Assembly: GCA_022452145.1 (NCBI GenBank)
Contig: JAKURY010000015.1
Span: forward strand, 1 to 54,518
Length of the DNA stretch: 54,518 nt
From: Acidimicrobiales bacterium
GTDB lineage: Bacteria; Actinomycetota; Acidimicrobiia; Acidimicrobiales; MedAcidi-G1
Direction: 5' to 3'
The number at the start of each line of letters is the position of its first letter. Positions within the stretch are counted from its first letter, which is position 1. Below the pieces are notes generated by a model that saw nothing but the letters and a program-made list of their open reading frames with translations, did no database searches and was not told the DNA's origin. Below, one piece after another: positions 2,013 to 54,218 of this stretch. The position numbers and the translations under genes were made by a program.

Positions 2013-3233
2013 GTGACGACCGCCGGGGACCACCGCCACCCGTACCGGTGGGTCCTGTTCGTCGGGATCTGCGGCGTCTACTTCGCCTTCGGGGTGGTGG
2101 CCATGTCGGTTCCCCCGCTGGTGGGCGAGGTCCGGGCCGACCTGGGCCTCAGCCGCGGCGCCATGGGCCTGGCCCTCGGAGCCTGGCAGCTCGTCTACAT
2201 AGTGAGCGCACCGATAGGCGGCCGCCTGATCGACCGACTGGGCGTCCACCGCGGCATCCTGCTCGGGTCGCTGGTGGTCATGGCGAGCGGGTTCGTCCGT
2301 GCGGCCGCCGGTGGCTTCGGCACCTTCTGGCTGGCCATCTCCCTGTTCGGGGTGGGTGGCCCGCTCATCTCGGCGGGAGCCCCGAAGGCCGTGAGCCTAT
2401 GGTTCACAGCAGAGCGGGAGCGCCGCCTGGCCATCGGCGTCTACAGCACCATGCCGGCCATCGGGGGAATGGCGACCCTCGTACTCTCCAACTCCGTCCT
2501 CATGCCGTTGACCGGCTCGTGGCGGGCAACCGTTGTCATCGAGACGGGCCTGATGGTCGTCGCCCTGCTCGCCTGGCTGGTGGTCTCGGGTCGTGCACCC
2601 GACCCGCCTGCCGCTGTCACGCCGCCTAGTGGTGTCGTCGTCGTCGGCCGACGGGGCCTGTTGGCGAGCTCCGAGTTCCGGCTGATCCTGGTGCTGGGCC
2701 TCGGCGTGTTCTTCGTCGGCCACGGCCTCGGGGGTTGGATGCCCGAGGTACTCAGGGAGCACAGCGGGTTCTCACCGATGGCGGCGGCCAACTGGGCGGC
2801 GCTGGGTGGCCTCGTGGGCGTGGTCGCCTCCCTCGTCGTTCCCCGTAGCACCGAACGCCGGCGCCTCCCGACGACGATGGCCGCCATGCTGCTGCTGGTC
2901 GCCGTGGGCGTGGTTGCCATCGTCATCCTCCCCACGGTTCTGGATCCGATTCCCGTCGCCATGGCCGGGGTGCGGTCTGCCATGGTCCCGCTGGCGCTGG
3001 TGGCCCTAATGGAGTCCGAGGGCGTGGACGGGTCCAACACCGGCGTCGCCTACGGCCTCTGGTTCGCGGTGGCCGAGGTCGGTGGCGTGACCGGACCCCT
3101 GGTGCTGGGCCGCGTGGCCGACACCTCGGCCGGCTTCGGTGGAGCGCTCGTCCTCGTGGCCCTGGTGTGTGTCGCCATGCTCGTTCCGATTGCCCGGCTC
3201 CGGCGGTTCACCGACACGGGTCTCCGCCGGTGA
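2013..3233 (+). CDS. Major facilitator superfamily transporter (CynX/NimT-like)
   Basis: 406 residues from GTG 2013, with about twelve hydrophobic segments separated by short loops and the MFS signature-like loop GGRLIDRLGVHRG between TM2 and TM3 near residue 75. A cytoplasmic central loop (residues about 195-215, RAPDPPAAVTPPSG) divides two six-helix halves. It is an inner-membrane secondary carrier; the substrate cannot be read from the sequence. The start is chosen because GAGCAT at 2001-2006 sits 6 bases before GTG 2013, while the alternative ATG 1968 adds a non-hydrophobic 15-residue extension that overlaps the repeat region. The gene is transcribed divergently from the PAC2 gene. Confidence 0.85.
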   Translation: MTTAGDHRHPYRWVLFVGICGVYFAFGVVAMSVPPLVGEVRADLGLSRGAMGLALGAWQLVYIVSAPIGGRLIDRLGVHRGILLGSLVVMASGFVRAAAGGFGTFWLAISLFGVGGPLISAGAPKAVSLWFTAERERRLAIGVYSTMPAIGGMATLVLSNSVLMPLTGSWRATVVIETGLMVVALLAWLVVSGRAPDPPAAVTPPSGVVVVGRRGLLASSEFRLILVLGLGVFFVGHGLGGWMPEVLREHSGFSPMAAANWAALGGLVGVVASLVVPRSTERRRLPTTMAAMLLLVAVGVVAIVILPTVLDPIPVAMAGVRSAMVPLALVALMESEGVDGSNTGVAYGLWFAVAEVGGVTGPLVLGRVADTSAGFGGALVLVALVCVAMLVPIARLRRFTDTGLRR

Positions 3234-3306
3234 TCCGGACCCGGAGTAGTTTCGGCGGTGGCCTGACGGGAGGTCAGGCATCCCGGCAGCACCGGGCGGG
3301 AGCCCC

Positions 3307-5637
3307 ATGACCACCAACGACACTGGAGCCGACCCGACTGAGGCCTATGCGGGCTTTCGGGGCGAGGTCGGTCGGATCATGTCCACCTCGACCCCTGACT
3401 GGCCACAGCCCCCGACGGCTCCTGACGGCGCGCCCAACGTGCTGGTCGTGCTGGTGGACGACCTCGGGTACAGCGACGTCGGGTGCTACGGCTCCGAGGT
3501 GGACACCCCGAACATCGACCGGTTGGCCGCCGAAGGCCTGCGCTACGCCAACTTCCACGTCAACCCCATGTGCTCGCCCACACGGGCATCCCTGCTCACA
3601 GGGCTGAACCACCACCTGGCCGGTGTGGGCACCGTGTGCCACATGGAGCCGGGCTTTCCCGGCTACGCGGCGACCATCAGGGAGGACGCAGTCACGATGG
3701 GTGGGGTCCTGAGGGATGCCGGCTGGTCGACGCTCATGGTCGGCAAGTGGCACCTCTGTCCGGACTCGCAGCTCACCGAGGCCGGTCCCCGGAACGGCTG
3801 GCCGTGCCAGAAGGGCTTCGACCGCTTCTACGGGATCCTGGACGGCTTCACGAACTTCCACCAGCCCCACCGCCTATACGAGGACAACCGGGCCCTGGAC
3901 ATCGACGACTTCCCCGACGGCTACTACTTCACCGACGACCTGACCGACCGGGCCCTCGGCATGGTCGCCGAACTCCGGGACGGGCACCCCCGCAGGCCGT
4001 GGTTTCTGTACTTCGCCCACGGGGCGGTCCATGCTCCGCTGCAGGCCAAGCCTGCTGACATCGGAAAGTACCGGGGTCGCTACGAGGCGGGCTGGGACGA
4101 GGTCCGCCGTCGCCGCTTCGAACGCCAGAAGGAGCTCGGGATCATGGCGGCCGACGTCGTGCTGCCACCCCGCAACACCGAGGAGGGCTACGCCGTCAAG
4201 GCGTGGGACGACCTGTCGGCGATGGAGAGGGAGCTATTCGCCAGGTACCAGGAGATCTTCGCCGGCATGGTCGACAACGTCGACCAGAACCTGGGTCGCC
4301 TCCGAGACGGGCTGGAGGCCATGGGCGAGTGGGAGAACACGATCGTCGTGTTCACCTCGGACAACGGCGGGAGCAGGGAGGGGCTGGACAACGGCACGTC
4401 GGCCTACTTCCGCACGCTGATCGGCCAGACCCGCACCAACCCGTTGGACTCCGTCGAGCTCGACCACTCGCGCCTGGACCTGATGGGCGGACCCAGGACC
4501 CTGCCCCACTATCCGTCGGGCTGGGCGATGGTGTCGGGCACGCCCTTCCGCCTCTACAAGATCAACACCCACCAGGGCGGCCACCAGGTGCCGTTCATCC
4601 TCTCGAAGGGTTCGGGCCTGCCAGGCGGAGGCGGCATCCGTCGCCAGTACCAGCACGTCACCGACCTGCTGCCCACCCTGCTGGACCTCGTCGGCGTCGA
4701 CATGCCGACCACCGTGCACGGGCGACCCGTTCCGGCCCCGGCAGGGGCCAGCTTCACGCCGTCGATCCACGACGGGGCGGCGGCCAGCACCCATCCCGAG
4801 CAGTACTACGAGCAGATGGGGCACCGGGGTATGTACCGCGACGGCTGGTCGGCCGTCGTCTGCCGGAAGCCACGCACGCCGTTCAGCGACGAGGTCTGGG
4901 AGCTGCACGACCTGGAAGAGGATCCGACGGAGAGTCGGAACCTGGCCGACGAGCACCCGGAGAAGGTCGCCGAGCTGGTCGACGCCTGGGAGCGGGCGGC
5001 CTGGGCCAACCAGGTGTTCCCGCTGGACGAGGGCAACAACGTCAAGAACCTGCTCAGGCCACCGTGGAACGCCGAGATGGAGGCAGAGGCCCGCTTCCTG
5101 CCCGACAGCCCGACCACCGAGCGCTACCGGTCCCTGCAACTCGTCAACTCCCGTTCGTTCGAGGTCGAGGTCTCGCTGGACCTGGCTGCCGGCGACCGCG
5201 GCACGCTGGTGGCCCACGGCGACCAGGGCGGCGGCTACGCCCTCTACGTGGTCGACGACCGGCTGCTCCTGGCGTGGAACGGCTACGGCTCCATGACCGA
5301 GGTCGACGGGGGTCCGGTGGTCGCAGGCACGTCGTCGATCCTGCTGGTGGTCGAGGCTGTGGGGAACCTGGCCGTGCACGTCGAGCTGAGGGTGGACGGG
5401 ACGGTCGTGGCCGGTGCCCGCGACCTGCCGGCTCTCACCGCGATGGCGCCGTTCCAGGGCATAGACGTGGGCATCGACAGGCGTTCGCCGGTGTCGTGGT
5501 CGATCCGGGAGAGGTACGGGACCTTCACGTGGTCCGGGACCCTGCACCACGTGACCTACCGTCCGGGGGAGCCTGCCCCCGACGCCGGGCCGCGCTGGCT
5601 GGATGTCCTGCGCGAGGCGGGCACCAGGTTCGAGTAG
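3307..5637 (+). CDS. Arylsulfatase (formylglycine-dependent sulfatase, S1 type)
   Basis: 776 residues. The sulfatase signature CSPTRASLLTG begins at Cys89, the residue converted to formylglycine by FGE; Asp51-Asp52 (VLVDDLGYSDVG) are the expected calcium ligands, and VGKWHLC near residue 146 is the second signature region. A later FTSDNGG segment supplies further metal ligands. The C-terminal 150 residues (from about 610) look like a separate beta-rich region. It would hydrolyse sulfate esters of an organic substrate. There is no obvious signal peptide, so it is either cytoplasmic or exported by an unrecognised route. The start at 3307 follows GGGAG; ATG 3379 (Met25) is an alternative. No formylglycine-generating enzyme gene is in the window. 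Confidence 0.9.
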   Translation: MTTNDTGADPTEAYAGFRGEVGRIMSTSTPDWPQPPTAPDGAPNVLVVLVDDLGYSDVGCYGSEVDTPNIDRLAAEGLRYANFHVNPMCSPTRASLLTGLNHHLAGVGTVCHMEPGFPGYAATIREDAVTMGGVLRDAGWSTLMVGKWHLCPDSQLTEAGPRNGWPCQKGFDRFYGILDGFTNFHQPHRLYEDNRALDIDDFPDGYYFTDDLTDRALGMVAELRDGHPRRPWFLYFAHGAVHAPLQAKPADIGKYRGRYEAGWDEVRRRRFERQKELGIMAADVVLPPRNTEEGYAVKAWDDLSAMERELFARYQEIFAGMVDNVDQNLGRLRDGLEAMGEWENTIVVFTSDNGGSREGLDNGTSAYFRTLIGQTRTNPLDSVELDHSRLDLMGGPRTLPHYPSGWAMVSGTPFRLYKINTHQGGHQVPFILSKGSGLPGGGGIRRQYQHVTDLLPTLLDLVGVDMPTTVHGRPVPAPAGASFTPSIHDGAAASTHPEQYYEQMGHRGMYRDGWSAVVCRKPRTPFSDEVWELHDLEEDPTESRNLADEHPEKVAELVDAWERAAWANQVFPLDEGNNVKNLLRPPWNAEMEAEARFLPDSPTTERYRSLQLVNSRSFEVEVSLDLAAGDRGTLVAHGDQGGGYALYVVDDRLLLAWNGYGSMTEVDGGPVVAGTSSILLVVEAVGNLAVHVELRVDGTVVAGARDLPALTAMAPFQGIDVGIDRRSPVSWSIRERYGTFTWSGTLHHVTYRPGEPAPDAGPRWLDVLREAGTRFE

Positions 5638-33170: not shown

Positions 33171-35749
33171 CCAGCTTCGAGTTGAACGGGGTGCAGGTCG
33201 AGGCGTCGGGTGACCACGCCCACCTGCTGGCCGCCCTGCGCGACGAGTTGGGCGTCACCTCGCCAAAGGACGGCTGTGCGCCGTCAGGGCAGTGCGGGTG
33301 CTGCACCGTGCTGGTCGACGGGAAGGCCCGGATCTCGTGCCAGACGTCGATGGAGAGGACCGAGGGGGCGTCGATCACGACCCTGGAGGGCCTGCCGGAC
33401 GGGGAGCGGGAACGCTACGCCACGGCGTTCGCGGCCCATGGCGCCCTGCAGTGCGGATTCTGCACGCCGGGCATCCTCCTGCGCGCCAAGGCGCTGGTGG
33501 ACAGGAAGGGCGAGGCCTTGACCCGCGACGATGCGGCCCGGCACCTGGGCGCCCACCTCTGCCGGTGTACCGGCTACGTGAAGATCCTGGATGCCGTGGG
33601 GTCGCTGGCCTCGGGCGAGATACCGGTGCCCCTGCCCCTGGGTGGCATCGGGACCAGCGGGGTGAAGGTCGAGGCCGCCGAGCTGAGCCTCGGCGACCGC
33701 CCGTTCATCGACGACATGTCGCCCGACGGCTTGCTGCACGCCGCCCTCCGCCTGGCCGACCACGCCCGGGCCGACGTGGTCCGAATCGACGCCACGGCCG
33801 CCGAGGCCGTCGACGGCGTCCACCGTGTGCTGACCGCGGCCGACATCCCCGGTGAGCACCGGGTCGGGATCATCCACACCGACTGGCCGGTGATGATCCC
33901 CGAGGGTGGCCGCACCTCCTACCTGGGCGACGTGCTGGCCGTGGTGGTGGCCGACGACCGGGAGACGGCCCGCCGGGCCGCGACGCTGGTCGACGTCGAG
34001 CTGGTGCCGCTGACCGTCTACAGCGACCCTGTCGTGGCCGTGGACGCCGACGAGGACGCGGTCTGGGAGCTTGACGGCAACGTGCTGTCGGTGTCGACCT
34101 ACGCCCGTGGCGACGTGGAGGCCGCGCTGGCCAGTTCGGCCCATGTGGTCGACGAGGTCTTCCAGACCCAGCGCATCGAGCACGCCTTCGTGGAGCCCGA
34201 GTCCACCCTGGCCGCGCCGACGGCCGACGGCGGGCTGTACGTCTACTCCGGGGGACAGGGTGTGTGGGACGACCGCAACCAGATCGCCTCGGTGCTCGGC
34301 ATAGACACCAACCGGGTGACCGTGGAGCTGGTATCGAACGGCGGGGCCTTCGGCGGCAAGGAGGACATGTCCAACCAGGCCCACACGGCGCTGGCCGCCT
34401 GGCTGCTGGACCAGCCGGTGAAGTGCACGCTGTCACGGGAGGAGTCCCTCCTCATGCACCCCAAGCGCCATCCGATCCGGATGGCCTACCGGGCTGGTTG
34501 CGACGCCGATGGGATGCTGACCGGCCTGTGGGCGCGGATGATCGGCGATTCGGGGCCGTACGCCTCGGTGGGGATGAAGGTCCTGGAGCGGGCTGCCGGA
34601 CACGCCAGCGGCCCCTACATGCTTCCCACCATCGACGTGGAAGCCACCGCGGTGAGGACCAACAGCCCGGTGGGCGGGGCCTTCCGAGGCTTCGGGGCCA
34701 ACCAGGCCCAGTTCGCCATGGAGGGCGTGATGGACCGCCTCGCCGAGAAGGTGGGGATCTCCGGGTGGGAGATCCGGAGCCGCAACGTCATATCGCCCGG
34801 GGCGGTGTGGGGTCCCGGCCAGGTCATGGACGACGGGTGCCTGGGTGCCCGGGCCTGCCTCGACGACGTGAAGCAGGCATATGACGACGCGGTGGCCGTC
34901 GGCCTGCCGGTCGGCCTGGGCCTGGGCCTCAAGAACTCCGGCCTCGGCAACGGCTTCAAGGAGGTCGCCAGGGCCGTGGTGCGCTTCGGAGACGACGGGC
35001 GGATCCAGGTCCGGCACTGCTGGACCGAGATGGGCCAGGGCATCCACACGGTGGTCGTGCAGGTGGCCGTCGAAGAACTAGGTGTGGATCCCGACCTGGT
35101 CGACGTCATAGTCGACACCACCAGGGAATTGGGTGCCGGCCAGACCACCGGCAGCCGGGGGACGCTCATGGGTGCCGGTTCGGTGGCAGACGCCTGTCGA
35201 AACGCCATCGCCGACGGGTGCCGGACCGGCGTCGACTACGAGGGCGAGTACCGGGTGGACTGGACCAACTCGATGAACGAGGGGCTCGAGAACCCGATCA
35301 TCCACTCGACCTTCGGCTATGCGGCCCAGATGGTGGTGCTGGATCCGGAGACCGGCGATGTGGACAGGGTTGTGGCCGCCCACGACGTGGGTCGGGCCGT
35401 CAACCCGATGCTCTGCGAGGGCCAGGTGGAGGGGGCGGTCCACATGGGGCTCGGCTACGCCCTCACCGAGGGATTCCCGGCCGACGCCGACGCCCGACCC
35501 CGCAACGACACCCTTCGCAGCCTGGGCATCATCCGCCCCAAGGACATGCCCGAGGTCGACGTGCGCCTGGTGGAGTCGCCGCAGCCCGGCGCGCCCTATG
35601 GCATCAAGGGCGTCGGCGAGATCGGCCTCGTGCCGACGGCCGGTGCTGTGGCCGCCGCCCTGCATGCCCACGATGGTGGGTGGCGCCACAGTCTGCCGAT
35701 GGCCGCTCCCGGCCAGCAGGAGCACTGGGCTGACTGGGACGGTCGTTGA
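33167..35749 (+). CDS. Fused 2Fe-2S/molybdopterin xanthine dehydrogenase-like enzyme (XdhD type)
   Basis: 860 residues joining both parts that are separate in the upstream enzyme. The N-terminus carries the ferredoxin cluster (Cys37, Cys43, Cys46, Cys58, with the unusual GCAPSGQCGCC spacing) and the second cluster (Cys96, Cys99, Cys132, Cys134). The Mo part starts near residue 170 and includes SNGGAFGGKEDM, GAFRGFGANQ and catalytic Glu818 (KGVGEIG). Domain order and spacing match the XdhD/selenium-dependent molybdenum hydroxylase group found beside ssnA in enterobacteria. There is no FAD domain, so it may share the FAD subunit at 27238 or use another acceptor. Confidence 0.9.
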   Translation: MTSFELNGVQVEASGDHAHLLAALRDELGVTSPKDGCAPSGQCGCCTVLVDGKARISCQTSMERTEGASITTLEGLPDGERERYATAFAAHGALQCGFCTPGILLRAKALVDRKGEALTRDDAARHLGAHLCRCTGYVKILDAVGSLASGEIPVPLPLGGIGTSGVKVEAAELSLGDRPFIDDMSPDGLLHAALRLADHARADVVRIDATAAEAVDGVHRVLTAADIPGEHRVGIIHTDWPVMIPEGGRTSYLGDVLAVVVADDRETARRAATLVDVELVPLTVYSDPVVAVDADEDAVWELDGNVLSVSTYARGDVEAALASSAHVVDEVFQTQRIEHAFVEPESTLAAPTADGGLYVYSGGQGVWDDRNQIASVLGIDTNRVTVELVSNGGAFGGKEDMSNQAHTALAAWLLDQPVKCTLSREESLLMHPKRHPIRMAYRAGCDADGMLTGLWARMIGDSGPYASVGMKVLERAAGHASGPYMLPTIDVEATAVRTNSPVGGAFRGFGANQAQFAMEGVMDRLAEKVGISGWEIRSRNVISPGAVWGPGQVMDDGCLGARACLDDVKQAYDDAVAVGLPVGLGLGLKNSGLGNGFKEVARAVVRFGDDGRIQVRHCWTEMGQGIHTVVVQVAVEELGVDPDLVDVIVDTTRELGAGQTTGSRGTLMGAGSVADACRNAIADGCRTGVDYEGEYRVDWTNSMNEGLENPIIHSTFGYAAQMVVLDPETGDVDRVVAAHDVGRAVNPMLCEGQVEGAVHMGLGYALTEGFPADADARPRNDTLRSLGIIRPKDMPEVDVRLVESPQPGAPYGIKGVGEIGLVPTAGAVAAALHAHDGGWRHSLPMAAPGQQEHWADWDGR

Positions 35750-36838: not shown

Positions 36839-37840
36839 ATGACACGCCTTGCCCTCTACCTGCAGGACGCCCATCCGATCCCCGAGGCGATCCAGTACGC
36901 GCGCTACGCCGAGGAGCGCGGCTTCGAGGCCGTCTGGCAGGCCGACTCGCGCCTGGTGCGCGACGCCGTCGTGCCCATGGCCGCCTTCGCCGCGTGCACC
37001 GAGACCATCAGGATCGGATCCGGTGTCGTGGACTGCTGGACCCGCAACCCGGCCCGCCTGGCGTCGACCTTCTCGACGCTGGACGACCTGGCACCGGGAA
37101 GGGTCATCCTTGGCATAGGCGCCTGGTGGGAGCCGCTGGCCTCCAAGGTCGGGGTGTCCCGCCGGAAGCCCCTCACGGCCATGCGGGAGACCGTCGAGGT
37201 GTGTCGGGCCCTGCTGGCCGACGAGACGGTGACCTACGACGGCGAGTTCGTGCACCTCGACGGCGTGGAGCTGGACTACGTGTACCAGGAGCGCCGACCC
37301 AAGGAGGTCCCGATCTACATCGGGGCCACCGGCGACAGGATGCTGGAGCTGACCGGCGAGATCGCAGACGGCGTCGTGCTGAACTACCTGGTGTCGCCCG
37401 AGTACAACCGGCGGGCCATGGACCGCCTGGCCGACGGCGCAGCCCGGGCCGGTCGGTCCCTGGACGACCTGGACCGCCCGCAGCTGGTGGTGTGCTCGGT
37501 GGCCGAGACCCGCGCCGAGGCCCTGGACGGAGCCAGGCTCATGGTCACGCAGTACCTGGGCCAGCAGCCCCACATCATGAAGGCCTCCGGCGTGCCCGAG
37601 TCGCTGCTCGACGAGATCGGCCGGGTGCTGACCTGGCCGGCCACCCACGAACAGGTCGAGGCTGCCTCCAAGCTGGTACCCGACGACATCGTGCAGATGA
37701 TCTGCGCGGCGGGCACCGCCGACGAGGTGCGTGAGAAGGTGGCCCAGTACATGGCCGACGGCTGCACCTGCCCGATCCTGTACCCGCTGGGGCCCGACGT
37801 CAGCCTGATGGTCGACACGTTCGCCGACTGGACCCCGTGA
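36839..37840 (+). CDS. LLM-class (luciferase-like) F420-type oxidoreductase
   Basis: 333 residues of a TIM-barrel luciferase-like monooxygenase. Characteristic stretches are [54 protein letters not shown] and [32 protein letters not shown]. Actinobacterial members with the GIGAW and IGATG loops often use coenzyme F420, whose biosynthesis gene fbiD is also in the window; FMN use cannot be excluded. Its place between SsnA-like and 8-oxoguanine-deaminase-like genes suggests a redox step on a heterocycle. It starts 25 bases after the previous stop. Confidence 0.87.
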
Positions 37841-37857
37841 CCCTGTCGACGCTGCGA

Positions 37858-37914
37858 GGCTGGTCTGCATGAGCCCCCGACCTTTCCTAACCGGCTGGTC
37901 TGCATGAGCCCCCG
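37858..37914. repeat. 22-bp direct repeat duplicating a start codon, 35-bp period
   Basis: A 22-base unit beginning GGCTGGTCTGCATGAGCC is present at 37858-37879 and 37893-37914. The second copy contains the start codon of the deaminase gene (ATG 37904); the first copy contains an equivalent ATG at 37869. Confidence 0.9.
37869..37907 (+). other. 12-codon leader ORF created by the duplication
   Basis: ATG 37869 opens a frame MSPRPFLTGWSA whose TGA (37905-37907) overlaps the next ATG (37904), giving ATGA. The leader could couple translation to the deaminase gene or slow it. It may equally be an unused by-product of the duplication. Confidence 0.35.
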
Positions 37915-39202
37915 CCTGGTGCTGCGCGGAGCCCGCCACCCGGGCGACATAGCGGTCGCCGACGGCCGGATCGTGGCCGTCGGGACGATCCCGCCCGAGC
38001 CGGACGACGTGGTGGTCAACTGCGACGGCGACATCATCACCGCCGGCCTCGTCAACACGCACCACCACCTGTACCAGTGGATGACCCGGGGTCGGGCCGT
38101 CGGGTGCGGCCTGTTCGGGTGGCTTGTCGAGCTGTACCCGGTCTGGGGTCGGCTCTCGGTCGCCGACGTGCGGGCTGCGGCCCTCGTGGGGCTGGGAGAG
38201 CTGGCCGCCACCGGCTGTACCACGGCCTCGGACCACCACTACCTGGTGCCCCGTGGCGACGACACGGTGTTCGACGCCATAGTGGATGCCGCAAGTGAGG
38301 TGGGGATACGGCTGCACCTCTCCCGCGGGTCGATGGACCTCGGGGAGAGCCGGGGCGGGTTGCCACCCGACCACGTCGTGGAGGACCGCGACGCCATCCT
38401 GGCCTCCACCGAGTCGGTGATCGCCCGCCACCACGACGGCGAGATGGTCCACGTCACGGTGGCGCCGTGCAGCCCCTTCTCGGTCACCCCCGAGCTGATG
38501 GTGGAGTCGGCCGAGCTGGCCCGACGCCACGGGCTGCGCCTCCACACCCACCTCTGCGAGACGGTCGAGGAACAGCAGCACTGCCTGGAGCGGTTCGGTC
38601 GCCGACCGGTCGAGATGCTGGACGAGTGGGGCTGGGTGGGCGACGACGTGTGGCTGGCCCACGGAATCCACATAGACGATGGCGAGATGGCCCGACTGGG
38701 GGCCGCCGGCACGGGGGTGGCCCACTGCCCCTCGTCCAATGCCCGCATCGCGGCGGGAATGTGTCGGGCCACCGATCTGCGCGCCGCCGGGTGCCCCGTG
38801 GGCCTGGGGGTGGACGGCGTTGCCTCCAACGAGGTGGGTGGCCTCTTTCCGGAGTTGCGGCAGGCCCTCTACACGGCCCGGCTCCGTGAAATGCGCCCGG
38901 ACGCGCTGATGCCGGACGACGTCGTGGAGATGGGCACCCGGGGGGGCGCCCGCTGCCTCGGCATGGACGACGTGGGGTCGATACAGGTCGGAATGCGGGC
39001 CGATCTGGCCGTCTGGCCCGGAGACGACCTGGGTGACATCGCCGATGCGCTCACCGCCCTCGTGCTGGGTCCGGACCGCAGGGTCCGGTACCTCTTCGTG
39101 GAGGGTCGGAGGGTGGTGGCCGACGGCCGGCTGACGGGCACTGACCTGTCGGCCGCCCACCGCGACCTGGCCGAGCGTTCCCGCCGCCTCTGGGAGGCCT
39201 GA
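37904..39202 (+). CDS. 8-oxoguanine deaminase-like amidohydrolase
   Basis: 432 residues. The metal-binding His53 and His55 (NTHHHLYQWMTRG), the FGWLVELYPVWGRL loop and GCTTASDHHYLVP are the marks of the 8-oxoguanine deaminase branch of the amidohydrolase superfamily; HTHLCETVEEQQ, AHGIHIDD and LGVDGVASNE give the remaining ligands and the catalytic Asp. Members deaminate 8-oxoguanine to urate or related compounds with release of ammonia. Unlike the SsnA-like paralogue it has the complete N-terminal beta-sandwich. It follows the duplicated start region. Confidence 0.87.
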   Translation: MSPRLVLRGARHPGDIAVADGRIVAVGTIPPEPDDVVVNCDGDIITAGLVNTHHHLYQWMTRGRAVGCGLFGWLVELYPVWGRLSVADVRAAALVGLGELAATGCTTASDHHYLVPRGDDTVFDAIVDAASEVGIRLHLSRGSMDLGESRGGLPPDHVVEDRDAILASTESVIARHHDGEMVHVTVAPCSPFSVTPELMVESAELARRHGLRLHTHLCETVEEQQHCLERFGRRPVEMLDEWGWVGDDVWLAHGIHIDDGEMARLGAAGTGVAHCPSSNARIAAGMCRATDLRAAGCPVGLGVDGVASNEVGGLFPELRQALYTARLREMRPDALMPDDVVEMGTRGGARCLGMDDVGSIQVGMRADLAVWPGDDLGDIADALTALVLGPDRRVRYLFVEGRRVVADGRLTGTDLSAAHRDLAERSRRLWEA

Positions 39203-39244
39203 GCGGCATACGCACAGGCGGGCCCCATGGGCCATGATGCAGCC

Positions 39245-39478
39245 GTGCAGATCGCCGCCGAATTCACCATCGAGCCCTTCGTCGAGGGAGCGCCGGGACC
39301 CCACGTCCGGGCGGCCATAGACGTGGCCGAATCGGCCGGCCTTACCGTCGAGGTGGGGCCGTTCGGGACAGCGGTCAGCGGGACGTCCGAAACCGTGCTG
39401 GACACCGTGGACGCCGTGGTCAGAGCAGCGATCGCCAACGGCGCCACTCGCGTTTCTCTCCAGTTGACGGTGGCCTGA
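39245..39478 (+). CDS. Thiamine-binding/YkoF-fold small protein
   Basis: 77 residues from GTG 39245, beginning QIAAEFTIEPFVEG. The family pattern EFTIEPFVEGxPGPHVxAAI then VEVGPFGTAVSG and GATRVSLQLTV is that of the MTH1187/YkoF-like thiamine-binding domain. Its function in actinobacteria is unclear; a link to hydroxymethylpyrimidine or thiamine is possible and would fit a heterocycle locus, but is inference. CATGAT at 39233-39238 lies 6 bases before the GTG; ATG 39227 is the other in-frame choice. Confidence 0.75.
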   Translation: MQIAAEFTIEPFVEGAPGPHVRAAIDVAESAGLTVEVGPFGTAVSGTSETVLDTVDAVVRAAIANGATRVSLQLTVA

Positions 39479-40783: not shown

Positions 40784-42331
40784 ATGAGCCCCGCCCCCGG
40801 CGATGCTCCGGCGACCGCGGCGCCGGCGGTCGAACTGCGTGGGGTCTGGAAGCGCTTTCCAGGAGTGGTGGCCAACGCCGGTGCGCACCTGACGGTCTGG
40901 GCCGGCACCGTGCACGCCGTGCTCGGCGAGAACGGGGCCGGCAAGTCCACGCTCATGAACGTGCTGTCGGGCGTCTACAGGCCCGACGAGGGCGAGGTCC
41001 GGATCGACGGCGTGGCCCGCCACTTCCGCTCGCCGGCCGATGCGCTGGCAGCCGGCGTGGGGATGGTGCACCAGGAGTTCCGCCTGGTGCCGTCGTTCAC
41101 CGTTGCCGAGAACGTGGTGCTGGGCGCCGCCGAACGGATCGTCCGTCGCCAGGCCGTCGAGTCGGCGGTCGCCGAGCTGGCAGAACGGTTCGGGCTGGCC
41201 ACCGAACCGGACCGACCGGTGTGGCAGCTCTCGATGGGGGAGCGCCAACGCGTCGAGATCCTCAAGGCGCTCTGGCGCGACGCCCGCATCCTGATCCTGG
41301 ACGAGCCGACGGCCGTGCTCACCCCGGGAGAGGCCGATGAGCTGGGCCGCATCCTCCGCCACATGGCCGAGGATGACCGCACGGTGATCTTCATCAGCCA
41401 CAAGCTGCACGAGGTGACTGGCTTCTGCGACGAGGCCACGGTGCTCCGGGGCGGCGAGACGGTAGCCGCCTCGCTGCCGGTGGCGGAGACCGACTCCTCG
41501 GCACTGGCGGGGCTAATGGTGGGCTCCTCTCCGGCCATCAGCGAGCGCCCAACGCCGGTGGCCGCCGGTGGGCCGATGCTCACCGTCGTCGGCCTGGCGT
41601 GCCTGGACGACCGGGGCCTGCCGGCCCTGCACGGGGTCGACCTGACGGTCCGCGCTGGCGAGATCGTCGGCATCGCAGGGGTGGCGGGCAACGGCCAACG
41701 CGAGTTGGCCCAGGCCGTGGCCGGGCTGCGCCCGACCACCGGTGGCTCCGTGCACATCGACGGGATCGACCTCACGGCGGCCACGCCGCGCCAGCGGTTC
41801 GGAGCCGGGTTGGGCTACATCCCGGAGGACCGCATGGGGGTGGGACTGGCTCCCCGGTTGAGCGTCACCGACAACGCCATCCTCCGGACCTACTCCAGCC
41901 ACCGGCGTGGCCCGTTCCTGGATGCCGAGGCGGCCACGGCCCACTGCCGGGACATCGTGGACCGCTTTGCCGTGCGTACCGGACCGCTGGACCAGCCGAT
42001 CGCCGGGCTGTCGGGCGGCAACCTGCAGCGCCTTCTGGTAGGACGGGAGTTGAGCGACCGGCCCCGGGTGGTGGTGGCCGCCCAGCCGACCCGCGGCCTG
42101 GACGTCCAGGGGGTCAAGGCCATTCAGGACCTGCTGGTGGCCGAGCGCGGGGTCGGCGTCGCCATCCTGCTGATCTCCGAGGACCTCGACGAGCTGCTGA
42201 CGCTCGCCGATCGCCTGCTGGTGATGCACGGAGGTCGGGTGGTCGCCGAGTTCGATCCCGAGGCTGCCGGGCGACATGACATCGGCGAGGCCATGGTCGG
42301 CAACGCCTCGACAGGCGTGGCAGCCACGTGA
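40784..42331 (+). CDS. Nucleoside-type ABC importer, double ATP-binding protein
   Basis: 515 residues with two nucleotide-binding domains. The first has Walker A GENGAGKS (49-56), signature LSMGERQRVEIL and Walker B LILDEPTAVL; the second has the degenerate GVAGNGQRE, signature LSGGNLQRLLVGREL and VVAAQPTRGLD. This asymmetric pair is normal for the RbsA/YufO group. It energises the two permeases encoded next; its stop overlaps the first permease start (GTGA, 42328-42331). Confidence 0.92.
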   Translation: MSPAPGDAPATAAPAVELRGVWKRFPGVVANAGAHLTVWAGTVHAVLGENGAGKSTLMNVLSGVYRPDEGEVRIDGVARHFRSPADALAAGVGMVHQEFRLVPSFTVAENVVLGAAERIVRRQAVESAVAELAERFGLATEPDRPVWQLSMGERQRVEILKALWRDARILILDEPTAVLTPGEADELGRILRHMAEDDRTVIFISHKLHEVTGFCDEATVLRGGETVAASLPVAETDSSALAGLMVGSSPAISERPTPVAAGGPMLTVVGLACLDDRGLPALHGVDLTVRAGEIVGIAGVAGNGQRELAQAVAGLRPTTGGSVHIDGIDLTAATPRQRFGAGLGYIPEDRMGVGLAPRLSVTDNAILRTYSSHRRGPFLDAEAATAHCRDIVDRFAVRTGPLDQPIAGLSGGNLQRLLVGRELSDRPRVVVAAQPTRGLDVQGVKAIQDLLVAERGVGVAILLISEDLDELLTLADRLLVMHGGRVVAEFDPEAAGRHDIGEAMVGNASTGVAAT

Positions 42332-43419
42332 GGCGTCCGGTACTCGCCCGTCGCGACCAGGTGCTCCGGGGTGGCCAGCCGTTGGCCTTCGCGGTGGGCC
42401 TCGCCGTGGCCCTGGTGGTGGGGGTGTTACTGCTGATGGGCTCCGGCCACGACCCGCTGCGGGTCTACGGGCGCATGTTCGATGCCTCGCTGGGCGATCC
42501 CCGGGCCTGGTCGGTGACCCTCAACCGGGCCGTGCCCCTGGGGCTGGCGGGGCTGGCCGTGGCCGTGGCGGGGTCCATGGGGCTCTGGAACATCGGAGCC
42601 GAGGGCCAGATCATGGCCGGGGCGATCGGTGCCGCCTGGGTCGCCCGGATCGGCGCCGGATGGCCGGGACCCGTACTGGTGACGGCCATGCTGGCCGCCG
42701 CTGTGGTCGGTGGCGGCCTGCTGGCCCTCGGTCCGGCGATCGCCCGTGCCCGGATCGGCGTCAACGAGATCATCACCACGCTCATGCTCAACGAGGTGGC
42801 CATCCGCCTCGTCCAGTGGCTTATCCACGGTCGCTGGAAGGATCCCGGTTCGCACAACTTTCCGTTGGCTCCGATGCTTCCCGCCAACGGCCGCCTGCCC
42901 ACGCTCTTCGAGCGGGCACACGTGGGCGTCGTGCTTGCCGGAATCGTCATCGCCCTCTTCGGCCTGGCCGCCAGCCGTACGGCCTGGGGGTACGAGCTCA
43001 GGGTGGCAGGCTCCTCGGGGGCTACGGCCCGCTACGCCGGGATCTCCCTGAAGCGAAAGATCCTGACCGTCCTGGTGCTGTCCGGCGGCGTCGCCGGCTT
43101 CGCCGGCGGCGTGGAGTTGGCGGGAACCGCCGACCGGATCACCGAGGGCCTCTCCAACGGGTTCGGCTTCGCCGGGATCATCGTGGCCGCCCTGGCCCTC
43201 ATGCGACCGTCGGGCGTCGCCGCCGTGGCCCTGCTTTTCGGTGCAGTGCAGATAGGAGGCCAGAGCATCCAGACCATGGGGGTGTCGTCCTCGGTCTCGA
43301 CCATCCTGCAGGCCCTTATCCTCTTCGGCGCCATAGCCGCCGGGGTGCTCAGCCGCTACCGGATCGAGATGGTTGCCGGTGACACGGTAGGGGCGGCAGC
43401 CTCGGGGGACGGCTCGTGA
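42328..43419 (+). CDS. Nucleoside-type ABC importer permease 1 (YufP-like)
   Basis: 363 residues, about nine to ten hydrophobic segments. GLAGLAVAVAGSMGLWNIGAEGQIMAGAIGAAWVAR and GVNEIITTLMLNEVAIRLVQWLIHG are the BPD_transp_2 family marks of the YufP group. It forms the inner-membrane channel with the second permease. GTG 42328 overlaps the ATPase stop; the stop overlaps the next GTG (43416-43419). Confidence 0.92.
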   Translation: MRRPVLARRDQVLRGGQPLAFAVGLAVALVVGVLLLMGSGHDPLRVYGRMFDASLGDPRAWSVTLNRAVPLGLAGLAVAVAGSMGLWNIGAEGQIMAGAIGAAWVARIGAGWPGPVLVTAMLAAAVVGGGLLALGPAIARARIGVNEIITTLMLNEVAIRLVQWLIHGRWKDPGSHNFPLAPMLPANGRLPTLFERAHVGVVLAGIVIALFGLAASRTAWGYELRVAGSSGATARYAGISLKRKILTVLVLSGGVAGFAGGVELAGTADRITEGLSNGFGFAGIIVAALALMRPSGVAAVALLFGAVQIGGQSIQTMGVSSSVSTILQALILFGAIAAGVLSRYRIEMVAGDTVGAAASGDGS

Positions 43420-51676: not shown

Positions 51677-52891
51677 ATGCGTTCCGCCCCGCGCGTCATC
51701 CCGGCCGTCCCATCGGCCGACGTCCGCCAGCGGATCGTCGCGCTCGCCATAGGGGTGGTGGCGGCGTCTGCAGGTGGCCTGGTGCTGGCCACCGCAGAGG
51801 GGACGCTGGCCGACCTGCCGGGCCTCCTCCTCCTGGTACCGGGTGCCATTGCACTGCGGGGCAACGTGTTCGGCGCCATGGGGAGCCGCCTGGGAACCGC
51901 CGTGCATGCCGGCACCTTCCGACTCTCGGCCCGACCCGATGGCGTGGTCGGGCAGAACCTGCTGGGAGCCGCTGCCCTGAGCCTGGTCCTCAGCGCAGTC
52001 CTCGGCCTGATGGCCCGCGGGACCGCTATCGCGTTCGGGGTCACCCCGACGATGACCCTGGCCGACTTCGTGGTGGTGTCGACCCTGGGAGGGTTGCTGG
52101 CCTCGGTATTCGTCGGTGCGGTGACCCTCGGGCTGGCGGCCGGGTCCATCCGCTTCGACTGGGACCTCGACAACGTGCTGGCGCCGCTCGTCTCCACCCT
52201 CGGGGACCTGGCCACCGTGCCGGCACTCGTGGTGGCCGCCGGGCTGGCCGAACGATCGGGGCTGACCGATGCACTGGGCGGAAGCCTCGGGCTGGTGGCG
52301 GTCGTGGTCCTGGTGGTGGCGTGGCGTTCTCCGCTGGTCGACGTCAGGCGAATCGTCCGCCAGTCGCTCCCGGTGCTGGTCGCCGCCGGGTTGCTCGACC
52401 TGATCGCCGGGGTGACCGTCGAGAGGCGCCTCGACGACCTGCTGGCCGCCGAGGCGATGCTCGTCCTGCTGCCTGCCTTCCTGGGTACCGCGGGAGCCCT
52501 CGGCGGGATCCTCTCAAGCCGCCTCTCCACCCAGTTCCACCTCGGCCTGGACGACGCCACTCCGTTGCCGACCCGATCCAGCCTCCGCGAGTTCCGGTCA
52601 CTTGCCCTGCTAGCCCTACCGGTGTTCGCCTGTTGTGCCGTGATCGCCCAGTGGGCGTCGGTGGCCACCGGCCAGACCACGCCCGGGCTCGGAGACCTGC
52701 TGGCCGTGGTCATGATCGCCGGCCTGGTGGCCACCGTGCTGGTCGTCGTCGTGGCGTACTACACGACGATGGCCGCCTACAGGTTCGGTCTGGACCCGGA
52801 CACCTACGGCATCCCGGTGGTGATGTCGAGCCTCGACCTGGTCGGGGCGTCCACCCTGATCCTGGCCATGGTGGCCGTGGGGGTGGCATGA
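51677..52891 (+). CDS. MgtE/SLC41-like divalent cation transporter
   Basis: 404 residues with about ten membrane helices forming two repeated MgtE-type halves. The signature strings are PGAIALRGNVFGAMGSRLGTAVHAG and NVLAPLVSTLGDLATVPAL in the first half, and LPAFLGTAGALGGILSSRLSTQFHLG with DPDTYGIPVVMSSLDLVGASTL in the second. It lacks the cytoplasmic N and CBS domains of bacterial MgtE, so it resembles the eukaryotic SLC41 arrangement. It would conduct Mg2+ or a similar ion. CACACT (51665-51670) lies 6 bases before ATG 51677. The PhoU/TrkA_C gene follows after 88 bases. Confidence 0.88.
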   Translation: MRSAPRVIPAVPSADVRQRIVALAIGVVAASAGGLVLATAEGTLADLPGLLLLVPGAIALRGNVFGAMGSRLGTAVHAGTFRLSARPDGVVGQNLLGAAALSLVLSAVLGLMARGTAIAFGVTPTMTLADFVVVSTLGGLLASVFVGAVTLGLAAGSIRFDWDLDNVLAPLVSTLGDLATVPALVVAAGLAERSGLTDALGGSLGLVAVVVLVVAWRSPLVDVRRIVRQSLPVLVAAGLLDLIAGVTVERRLDDLLAAEAMLVLLPAFLGTAGALGGILSSRLSTQFHLGLDDATPLPTRSSLREFRSLALLALPVFACCAVIAQWASVATGQTTPGLGDLLAVVMIAGLVATVLVVVVAYYTTMAAYRFGLDPDTYGIPVVMSSLDLVGASTLILAMVAVGVA

Positions 52892-52946
52892 CCACGCCAA
52901 GGTGTGCTGATCCCGGAACCCTTTCCGACCGGTCGACGGTCGGGAA

Positions 52947-52952
52947 TACCAT
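52947..52952 (+). promoter_or_regulatory. Possible -10 element TACCAT for the PhoU/TrkA_C gene
   Basis: TACCAT would start transcription about 20 bases before ATG 52980; GAGGA in between is a plausible ribosome-binding site, so this gene appears to have a leader. Confidence 0.4.
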
Positions 52953-52979
52953 TGACCCACTACATCGAGCGAGGATCTG

Positions 52980-54218
52980 ATGGACGAAAGACCCCGCAAC
53001 CTGCGGGCCATGTTGGCCGAGGCCAAGGACACATCGGAGCTGATGGTCGACCTGGCCTACGCGTCGGTCTACTTCGGCGACCCGGACATGGCTGAAGAGG
53101 TCGACGAGCTCGAGGAGCAGATGAGCGAGCTGGTCCATGACATGCGCGCGGTGTGCGTGCTGGCGGCCCGCAGTCCCCGGGAGGCCGAGGGCATGTCGTC
53201 GGTGCTCCAGGTGGTGTCTGCGATCGAGCGCATGGCCAACGACGCCGTGGACATCGCCCGGATCGTCACCCACCGCCTGGGCATACCCCGCCAACTGGTG
53301 GCCGACCTCTCCGACGCCGAAGAGGTGTCGCACCGGGTGCTCGTGAGCGAGGGCTCGCACATGGCGCACCGTCCTCTCTCGGCCCTCGAACTCCCGGTGC
53401 AGGCCGGCATGCGGGTCATGTCGATCCGTCGTGGTCGTGAATGGGACACAGACATCGGTGGGGACACCGTCCTCGTCCCCGACGACGTGCTGTTCCTGCG
53501 AGGGTCGCCCGAGGGCATCACCCGGCTGCGCGAGCTCGCCGCCGCACCGGTCTGGGAGCCGCCACGCGCCGACGACACCGCCGCGGTCACCGACCTCGAT
53601 CGGGCGGTCGACGTCCTGGTCGAGATGAAGCACCTCTCCGAGCCCGCCGTGGGCCTCGCCTACCGTGCCCTCGTCTTCGGCGACCGCGGCCGCGCCGCCG
53701 AGGTGCGCCACCTCGAGGACCGGCTGGACGAGATGAAGGACCACCTCGAACTGTGGGTGCTGCGGTCGGCCGGCGCTGACCTGGAGCCGTCGGCGCTGCG
53801 TGGGCTACTGCACCTCGCCGAGGCCGCCGAGGACATCGGCGACCAGGCCCAGATGATGGTCTGGATCATCGAGAAGGACGAGGAACTGCACCCGATCCTC
53901 GGCATCGCACTCGGCGAGGCCGACGAGGTCGTGGTGCGCTACCCGGTGGCCGAGGGCTCGCCGATCGACGGCTCGTCGCTCTCCGAGTTGGGCATGAACA
54001 TCGAGCCCGGCTTCACGGTGCTCGCCATCCGGCGGGGTGGCCGCTACGTGTACCGGCCGCGGGGCGGCGTGCGTCTGGCTGCCGGCGACGAACTCATCGC
54101 TAGCGGCCCCGACGAGGGCCGGTCGCTGCTCGCCCGCATGTGCGGCTGGGACCTCGTCGAGGACGAGGAGGGCGACGACGAACTGGTCCCCGCCGGAACC
54201 GGTTCTGCGAGTGCCTGA
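52980..54218 (+). CDS. Duplicated PhoU-TrkA_C regulatory protein
   Basis: 412 residues made of two similar halves. Each has a PhoU-like helical unit (residues about 10-110: SELMVDLAYASVYFGDPDMAEEVDELEEQM; and about 205-300: SEPAVGLAYRALVFGDRGRAAEVRHLEDRL) followed by a TrkA_C/RCK_C beta domain (about 125-195 and 310-395). Such proteins regulate ion channels or transporters by ligand binding at TrkA_C. Immediate proximity to the SLC41-like gene suggests that it is its regulatory partner, which is inference. The tail is acidic (EDEEGDDE). There is no NAD-binding TrkA_N. Confidence 0.88.
   Translation: MDERPRNLRAMLAEAKDTSELMVDLAYASVYFGDPDMAEEVDELEEQMSELVHDMRAVCVLAARSPREAEGMSSVLQVVSAIERMANDAVDIARIVTHRLGIPRQLVADLSDAEEVSHRVLVSEGSHMAHRPLSALELPVQAGMRVMSIRRGREWDTDIGGDTVLVPDDVLFLRGSPEGITRLRELAAAPVWEPPRADDTAAVTDLDRAVDVLVEMKHLSEPAVGLAYRALVFGDRGRAAEVRHLEDRLDEMKDHLELWVLRSAGADLEPSALRGLLHLAEAAEDIGDQAQMMVWIIEKDEELHPILGIALGEADEVVVRYPVAEGSPIDGSSLSELGMNIEPGFTVLAIRRGGRYVYRPRGGVRLAAGDELIASGPDEGRSLLARMCGWDLVEDEEGDDELVPAGTGSASA

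Follow-up and report, generated by a model that had tools for sequence, protein, structure and literature searches.

Two overlapping mini-ORFs and a 35-nt duplication between an oxidoreductase gene and an 8-oxoguanine deaminase gene: a putative translational relay

The junction and its repeat

The window (the whole 54,518-nt stretch of DNA analysed here) carries a gene for a luciferase-like oxidoreductase, followed on the same strand by a gene for 8-oxoguanine deaminase (Table 1). The deaminase scores 552 bits against NF006055, above that model's cut-off of 532, and so qualifies as an NCBIfam equivalog. The two genes adjoin each other in all 44 usable junctions of the family. In the window, the 63-nt spacer between them is tiled by two very short open reading frames, mini-ORFs A and B, with 4-nt overlaps throughout and no untranslated base. 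The stop/start overlaps are GTGA (37837-37840), ATGA (37869-37872) and ATGA (37904-37907), each having one of the lengths (4 or 1 nt) by which coupled pairs are recognised.

The first-pass annotation described a 22-base unit containing an ATG, repeated at a 35-base period, with the first ATG opening a 12-codon ORF whose TGA overlaps the second. All of this is confirmed: the copies are exact and lie 35 nt apart from start to start, and the frame opened at 37869 (ATG AGC CCC CGA CCT TTC CTA ACC GGC TGG TCT GCA TGA) encodes MSPRPFLTGWSA and ends in a TGA (37905-37907) overlapping the deaminase ATG at 37904. That description captured mini-ORF B but overlooked mini-ORF A, which bridges the rest of the gap. 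Mini-ORF A runs from the upstream stop to the first ATG, and together with B it tiles the 63-base gap; we call an ORF of this kind a "relay". The repeat also needs restating, because 22 nt is the length of the identical part and the true unit is 35 nt, with a linker that resembles deaminase codons in three related genomes (G004, G009 and G008).

Table 1. Features of the oxidoreductase-deaminase junction, in window coordinates.
Feature	Position	Strand	Remarks
Upstream gene, luciferase-like (LLM class) oxidoreductase	36839..37840	+	PF00296, E 1.1e-73; stop is the TGA of GTGA 37837-37840
Mini-ORF A (relay 1), GTG...TGA, 11 codons	37837..37872	+	start overlaps upstream stop, stop overlaps first ATG (ATG1)
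GAGG, Shine-Dalgarno-like, 9 nt before ATG1	37856..37859	+	invariant in 7 of 7 genomes compared
Repeat copy 1, 22 nt	37858..37879	+	
Mini-ORF B (relay 2), ATG...TGA, 12 codons, MSPRPFLTGWSA	37869..37907	+	stop overlaps deaminase ATG
13-nt linker, diverged remainder of the 35-nt unit	37880..37892	+	
Repeat copy 2, 22 nt, contains deaminase start	37893..37914	+	
Downstream gene, 8-oxoguanine deaminase	37904..39202	+	NF006055 above cut-off; PF01979

Allowing up to 3 mismatches, the 22-mer has two forward-strand sites and no reverse-strand site in the 2.08-Mb draft genome, both at this junction; as a control, the pattern read backwards has one site. The viral contigs searched with the 22-mer gave no match. 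Elsewhere in the cluster, NTGA overlaps occur at other same-strand junctions (TTGA at 35746-35749, GTGA at 42328-42331 and GTGA at 43416-43419), and a small ORF (39227-39478) whose product has a thiamine-binding-protein domain (PF01910) lies between the deaminase gene and a gene for a Bmp-type substrate-binding protein.

Relatives and the history of the duplication

The family sample comprised 48 genomes: the deaminase is encoded in 46 at the threshold used, both genes were matched in 45, and 44 gave a usable junction. Named records that duplicate G genomes were counted once only, and G031, G065 and G066 are absent from the junction counts. G012 is also outside them, because its contig opens inside the last part of the oxidoreductase gene and the match was misplaced; read by eye, its junction is of the direct in-frame kind. 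Contigs C77, C111 and C112 of G012 hold two further fragments that match the window with 93-94% identity over the end of the oxidoreductase gene, which suggests a mixed bin or additional copies.

Two relays are found in 4 of the 44 junctions and one relay in 8, namely a trio of sister genomes within the genus (g1) and five of the six g4 genomes, whose relays are entered at TGATG and left at TGATG or ATGA. The path from gene to gene is direct in 21 (or 19, once two g2 TTG overlaps are recast as short gaps) and absent in 11: seven g6 genomes with a 13-nt gap, two g2, one g4 and one g3 with an 8-nt overlap. The g6 junctions (loci such as L136 and L140) have no relay, and five of the seven carry AGAGGA before the deaminase ATG, perhaps as an alternative to overlap. 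Every gap of at least 19 nt holds a relay (12 of 12 genomes), and the remaining 32 junctions have an overlap or a gap of at most 13 nt. These 12 long-gap genomes belong to just two clades and so do not count as 12 independent cases.

Frame offsets within g1 were measured from the overlapping start to the conserved core. This distance is divisible by 3 in all nine direct genomes measured, and the remainder is 2 in the trio and 1 in the four genomes with two relays. Since the frame moves by one base at every overlap, the number of hops tracks the frame offset. Any relay necessarily obeys this arithmetic; what the arithmetic does not impose is the presence of a relay each time.

All 17 genus genomes have a match to the region. 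A 63-nt spacer with the duplication occurs in four of them (the window genome G000, G004, G008 and G009), while the sister trio (G001, G007 and G013) has a 28-nt spacer, exactly 35 less, with a single copy. Looking for single-copy relatives was among the checks proposed in the first-pass annotation, and their existence upholds its claim that a mutational duplication created the arrangement. A tree built from the two genes together (2151 coding columns; 18 rows, of which 16 are genus genomes, all but G012, and two are from g4) groups the four duplicated genomes with support of 91/91, which is below the tool's star, and the presence of the duplication maps to one change. The duplication is therefore old, is common to this clade of four and probably extended an existing relay.

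The three relatives also bear on the annotation's refuting case, in which neighbours would carry two copies with a mutated ATG. That case occurs only in a form that keeps a start codon: GTG replaces the first ATG in G004, G008 and G009, and the 12-codon frame and its TGA overlap are intact. With ORF B starting at GTG, these genomes have the same two-relay tiling as the window genome.

Their assemblies also speak to whether the repeat is an artefact of a metagenome-assembled genome. The window genome is a 46-contig draft, direct repeats can misassemble, and a second copy of the species was not found. However, the assemblies of three other species carry the 63-nt spacer with a diverged duplication, and we regard an artefact as extremely unlikely.

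Identity between the two 35-nt copies is 27/35 in G000, 27/35 in G004, 22/35 in G009 and 20/35 in G008. The linker matches the deaminase codons at 11 of 13 sites in G004, 9 in G009 and 8 in G008, and at 5 in G000. The first 22 nt are identical between copies in G000, with 12 to 16 matches in the other three. All eight mismatches between the G000 copies thus fall inside the 13-nt linker (hypergeometric P 5.5e-5 against uniform divergence), which argues against uniform divergence after one duplication in the G000 lineage and means that the 22-nt parts were probably homogenised there. Both G000 copies have the T of TCTGC, where the other six genomes compared have G. The pattern favours one old 35-nt duplication with later local homogenisation in G000, for which tandem-repeat expansion/contraction or local conversion would do as a route; a second, independent duplication of equal period is less likely.

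Mini-ORF A has an equal length in the four duplicated genomes and the trio. In the trio it reaches the deaminase ATGA alone, encoding VIALDTRGWTA in two genomes and MTGPDTRGWTV in one. The direct g1 genomes have an in-frame N-terminal extension of the deaminase at the place of mini-ORF A, so A may be a frame-shifted form of that extension; the comparison suggests this origin, with the polarity being our inference.

An extended deaminase is also the basis of another explanation, that translation begins at an in-frame start farther upstream rather than mainly at ATG 37904. In all four duplicated genomes the deaminase frame stays open over 21 codons, back to the TGA of the upstream gene, and G004, G008 and G009 share an in-frame GTG five codons upstream (with another two codons upstream in two of the three). 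The window has no in-frame upstream ATG, GTG or TTG, so no such start is common to all four, and the trio has the same MSPRLVLRG start with a different frame upstream. We consider a longer N-terminus very unlikely.

Conservation and chance

Sequence conservation at the junction is uneven. Among the four duplicated genomes, a single site varies in the 16 nt preceding the ORF B start, compared with 14/21 for ORF B codons 2-8, 6/11 for the 11 nt before the main ATG and 153/373 for four-fold sites. For this 16-nt block, whose limits were chosen post hoc with the data already seen, Fisher's test gives P 0.0038 relative to four-fold sites and P 0.00019 relative to the 32 sites lying between the ORF B start codon and the main ATG. 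A scan over all 16-nt windows with permuted sites gave P 0.007, and across four widths P ranged from 0.044 (10 nt) to 0.003 (20 nt). The block thus has the initiation-site conservation by which a ribosome-delivering uORF is judged. Its letters double as codons for RGWSA, the end of mini-ORF A, and seven sequences are too few to tell coding constraint from ribosome-site constraint.

Shine-Dalgarno (SD)-like sites were scored with general anti-SD letters rather than those of the host 16S, because no 16S gene was detected in the window's draft genome. On this scale, the GAGG of the ORF B start scores -5.9 kcal/mol in all four duplicated genomes, and the best site of the main ATG is weaker in each (-4.1 to -4.7 kcal/mol, or -4.1 to -5.6 with a wider rule). 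GAGG there serves the ORF B start rather than the main ATG; in the single-copy trio it precedes the deaminase ATG, so the duplication shifted the main start away from it. Sites at the start of mini-ORF A are weak in every one of the 12 relay genomes (-3.0 to -3.6), which makes the step from the upstream gene to A the least supported one. Main-start sites have a median of -5.25 in relay genomes versus -3.0 in gap genomes (P 0.045), a difference that fits SD-helped reinitiation and equally fits plain SD-driven initiation. The two starts could not be told apart clearly by predicted RNA accessibility, and no sigma-70-type promoter was found in the spacer.

The first-pass annotation offered translational coupling or a leader peptide as what the arrangement resembles. 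A leader peptide or attenuator, in which stalling within the 12-codon ORF would set deaminase expression, has in its favour a short upstream ORF adjoining a metabolic gene. The peptides, however, differ among the four genomes (MSPRPFLTGWSA, VSDRQVLWGRWA, VKNRPVLWGRWA and VKNRPVLWDRWA), and codons 2-8 vary more than four-fold sites do. At the junction there is no terminator-like site and no Rfam match, and the RNA fold is ordinary (z +1.28 from a single-fold prediction). These results speak against a riboswitch along with the leader peptide and attenuator, to which we give very little credence. Mini-ORF A varies evenly across codon positions (5, 6 and 6 of 10 sites in seven genomes), so neither ORF indicates a peptide function. 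Putative coupling fares better, being supported by the conserved ribosome-site block, frame and overlap.

Chance deserves more weight. The deaminase may start independently, with the mini-ORFs being accidents of GC-rich, stop-poor sequence, an ATGA start and a duplication that copied ATGA. When spacers are randomised between fixed ends, a relay appears with probability 0.59 at a length of 28 nt and 0.10 at one of 63 nt. For a 19-nt spacer the value is 0.66 ahead of ATGA and 0.06 ahead of ATGG, and a 34-nt spacer ahead of ATGG also gives 0.06; the junction's own letters give 0.15. A single relay is therefore nearly free once the spacer length is right. An upstream ORF of at least 6 codons that ends on the start is present in 45.6% of random spacers before ATGA, and in 9.3% it comes with an SD-like site equally strong. 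The start codon itself supplies three of the four bases of a 4-nt overlap, which arises easily according to the available text of PMC12548453. In addition, the rate at which ORF B evolves equals or exceeds that of four-fold sites, and 10 of the 12 relay genomes have an SD-like site of -4 kcal/mol or stronger before the main start, as independent initiation would have it.

Across the whole window, 3 of 18 junctions hold a relay (the present one counted) against 1.1 expected, an unconvincing excess. The others are same-strand gaps at 3230-3309 and 52888-52982, each bridged by one relay ORF (26 and 30 codons, with uncertain starts); their null probabilities are 0.80 and 0.03, respectively.

Against a neutral by-product stand the ribosome-site block, conserved before the ORF B start and not before the main ATG; the bridging of 12 of 12 long gaps, though in two clades only; and simulated retention in the four species, at 0.0045-0.12. 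The simulations used four-fold branch lengths, which sum to 0.836 among the four duplicated genomes, and modelled substitutions only, from root states typed by hand. Under neutrality, all four genomes retained the start, frame and GAGG of ORF B with probability 0.0009-0.0037, or 0.029-0.054 at half rate (100,000 runs each). The relay path was simulated with 2000 runs per model, so the smallest values rest on few runs. It survived in all four tips with probability 0.0045-0.026 at the four-fold rate and 0.05-0.12 at half rate, for the trio relay 0.69-0.77 and 0.81-0.86, and for the g4 relay in five tips 0.001-0.088 and 0.0125-0.24. At half the neutral rate such retention is no surprise, nor is it for the trio under any of the models. 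Taking both sides together, we consider a neutral by-product possible but doubtful.

A putative relay and its known counterparts

The reading we lean towards, with moderate confidence, is that the 63-nt gap is a functional translational relay, in which termination-reinitiation coupling would be combined with SD-driven loading at ORF B. Ribosomes stopping at GTGA 37837-37840 would restart on mini-ORF A, further ribosomes would load at GAGG 37856-37859 for mini-ORF B, and termination at ATGA 37904-37907 would be followed by restart on the deaminase. Each overlap would shift the frame by one base, so that one hop fixes one unit of offset and two hops fix two. Mini-ORF A most likely descended from a frame-shifted N-terminal extension of the deaminase, and mini-ORF B would have arisen by the 35-bp tandem duplication in the ancestor of the four species. 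We infer the translation of the mini-ORFs, their coupling and this order of events from the anatomy, clade distribution and conservation pattern of the junction.

Published distance rules come from E. coli and H. volcanii, neither of which is close to the present organism. In the available text of Huber et al. 2023 (PMC10666635), which studied six native pairs in these two species, reinitiation drops steeply with distance: it is almost nil at about 20 nt, and at 38 nt the loss in E. coli is 80-90% or complete. For two pairs, the last 15 nt of the upstream gene were enough. Applied here, these rules predict that an unbridged gap of 63 nt would leave the genes uncoupled and that mini-ORFs with 33 and 36 coding nt would couple them again. 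The earlier study (Huber et al. 2019, PMC6728339) tested 14 overlapping pairs for coupling, and its available text gives "13 of 14 cases" without the predicate.

A more tentative proposal, which we think unlikely as it stands, is that the relay acts as frame repair. The ribosome would stop, step back one base per overlap and continue, so the number of mini-ORFs would equal the frame offset and duplicating a start would add a hop. With the upstream stop on an NTGA start, a frame-breaking indel would not uncouple the genes, and relay chains without a function of their own could grow.

If the relay is real, the series of direct overlap, one relay and two relays would be a natural record of coupling that survives frame-breaking changes. 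The 12 natural relay variants of one junction would also make it testable whether tiny intercistronic ORFs are selected as ribosome bridges. Relay ORFs further bear on the annotation of very short ORFs, as gene calls usually omit those of 6 to 12 codons.

Several known systems share parts of this arrangement. Bicistronic-design cassettes consist of an SD, a short first cistron and a stop overlapping the start of the target gene; unlike them, the junction is natural and has an extra relay upstream. The open-licence titles and abstracts searched contained no series of relay ORFs between two genes, which is weak evidence of absence.

As far as the available text of Huber et al. 2019 and 2023 goes, coupling through 4-nt (ATGA/GTGA) and 1-nt (TGATG) overlaps uses junctions of the types seen here, and its dependence on distance is what would make a 63-nt gap a barrier. 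Unlike those pairs, the ORFs here have 11 and 12 codons, show no sign of peptide function and are chained between enzyme genes, with the coupling being putative.

The nearest precedents, judging by the accessible part of Brown and Wade 2025 (PMC12548453), are short ORFs that deliver ribosomes to a coupled gene and the mycobacterial MIRU elements, which insert at start codons and contribute an ORF coupled with a -4 overlap. ORF B is like the former in having its own SD-like site and ending on the main start, but its place is between two genes, where it forms a series with a mini-ORF A that begins on the upstream stop, and its origin from a duplication of the main start is visible. The junction resembles MIRU in placing repeat-derived sequence at a start codon with a short ORF in a -4 overlap; unlike the multi-copy MIRU, its repeat is not dispersed or mobile, with two sites in the genome, both of them here.
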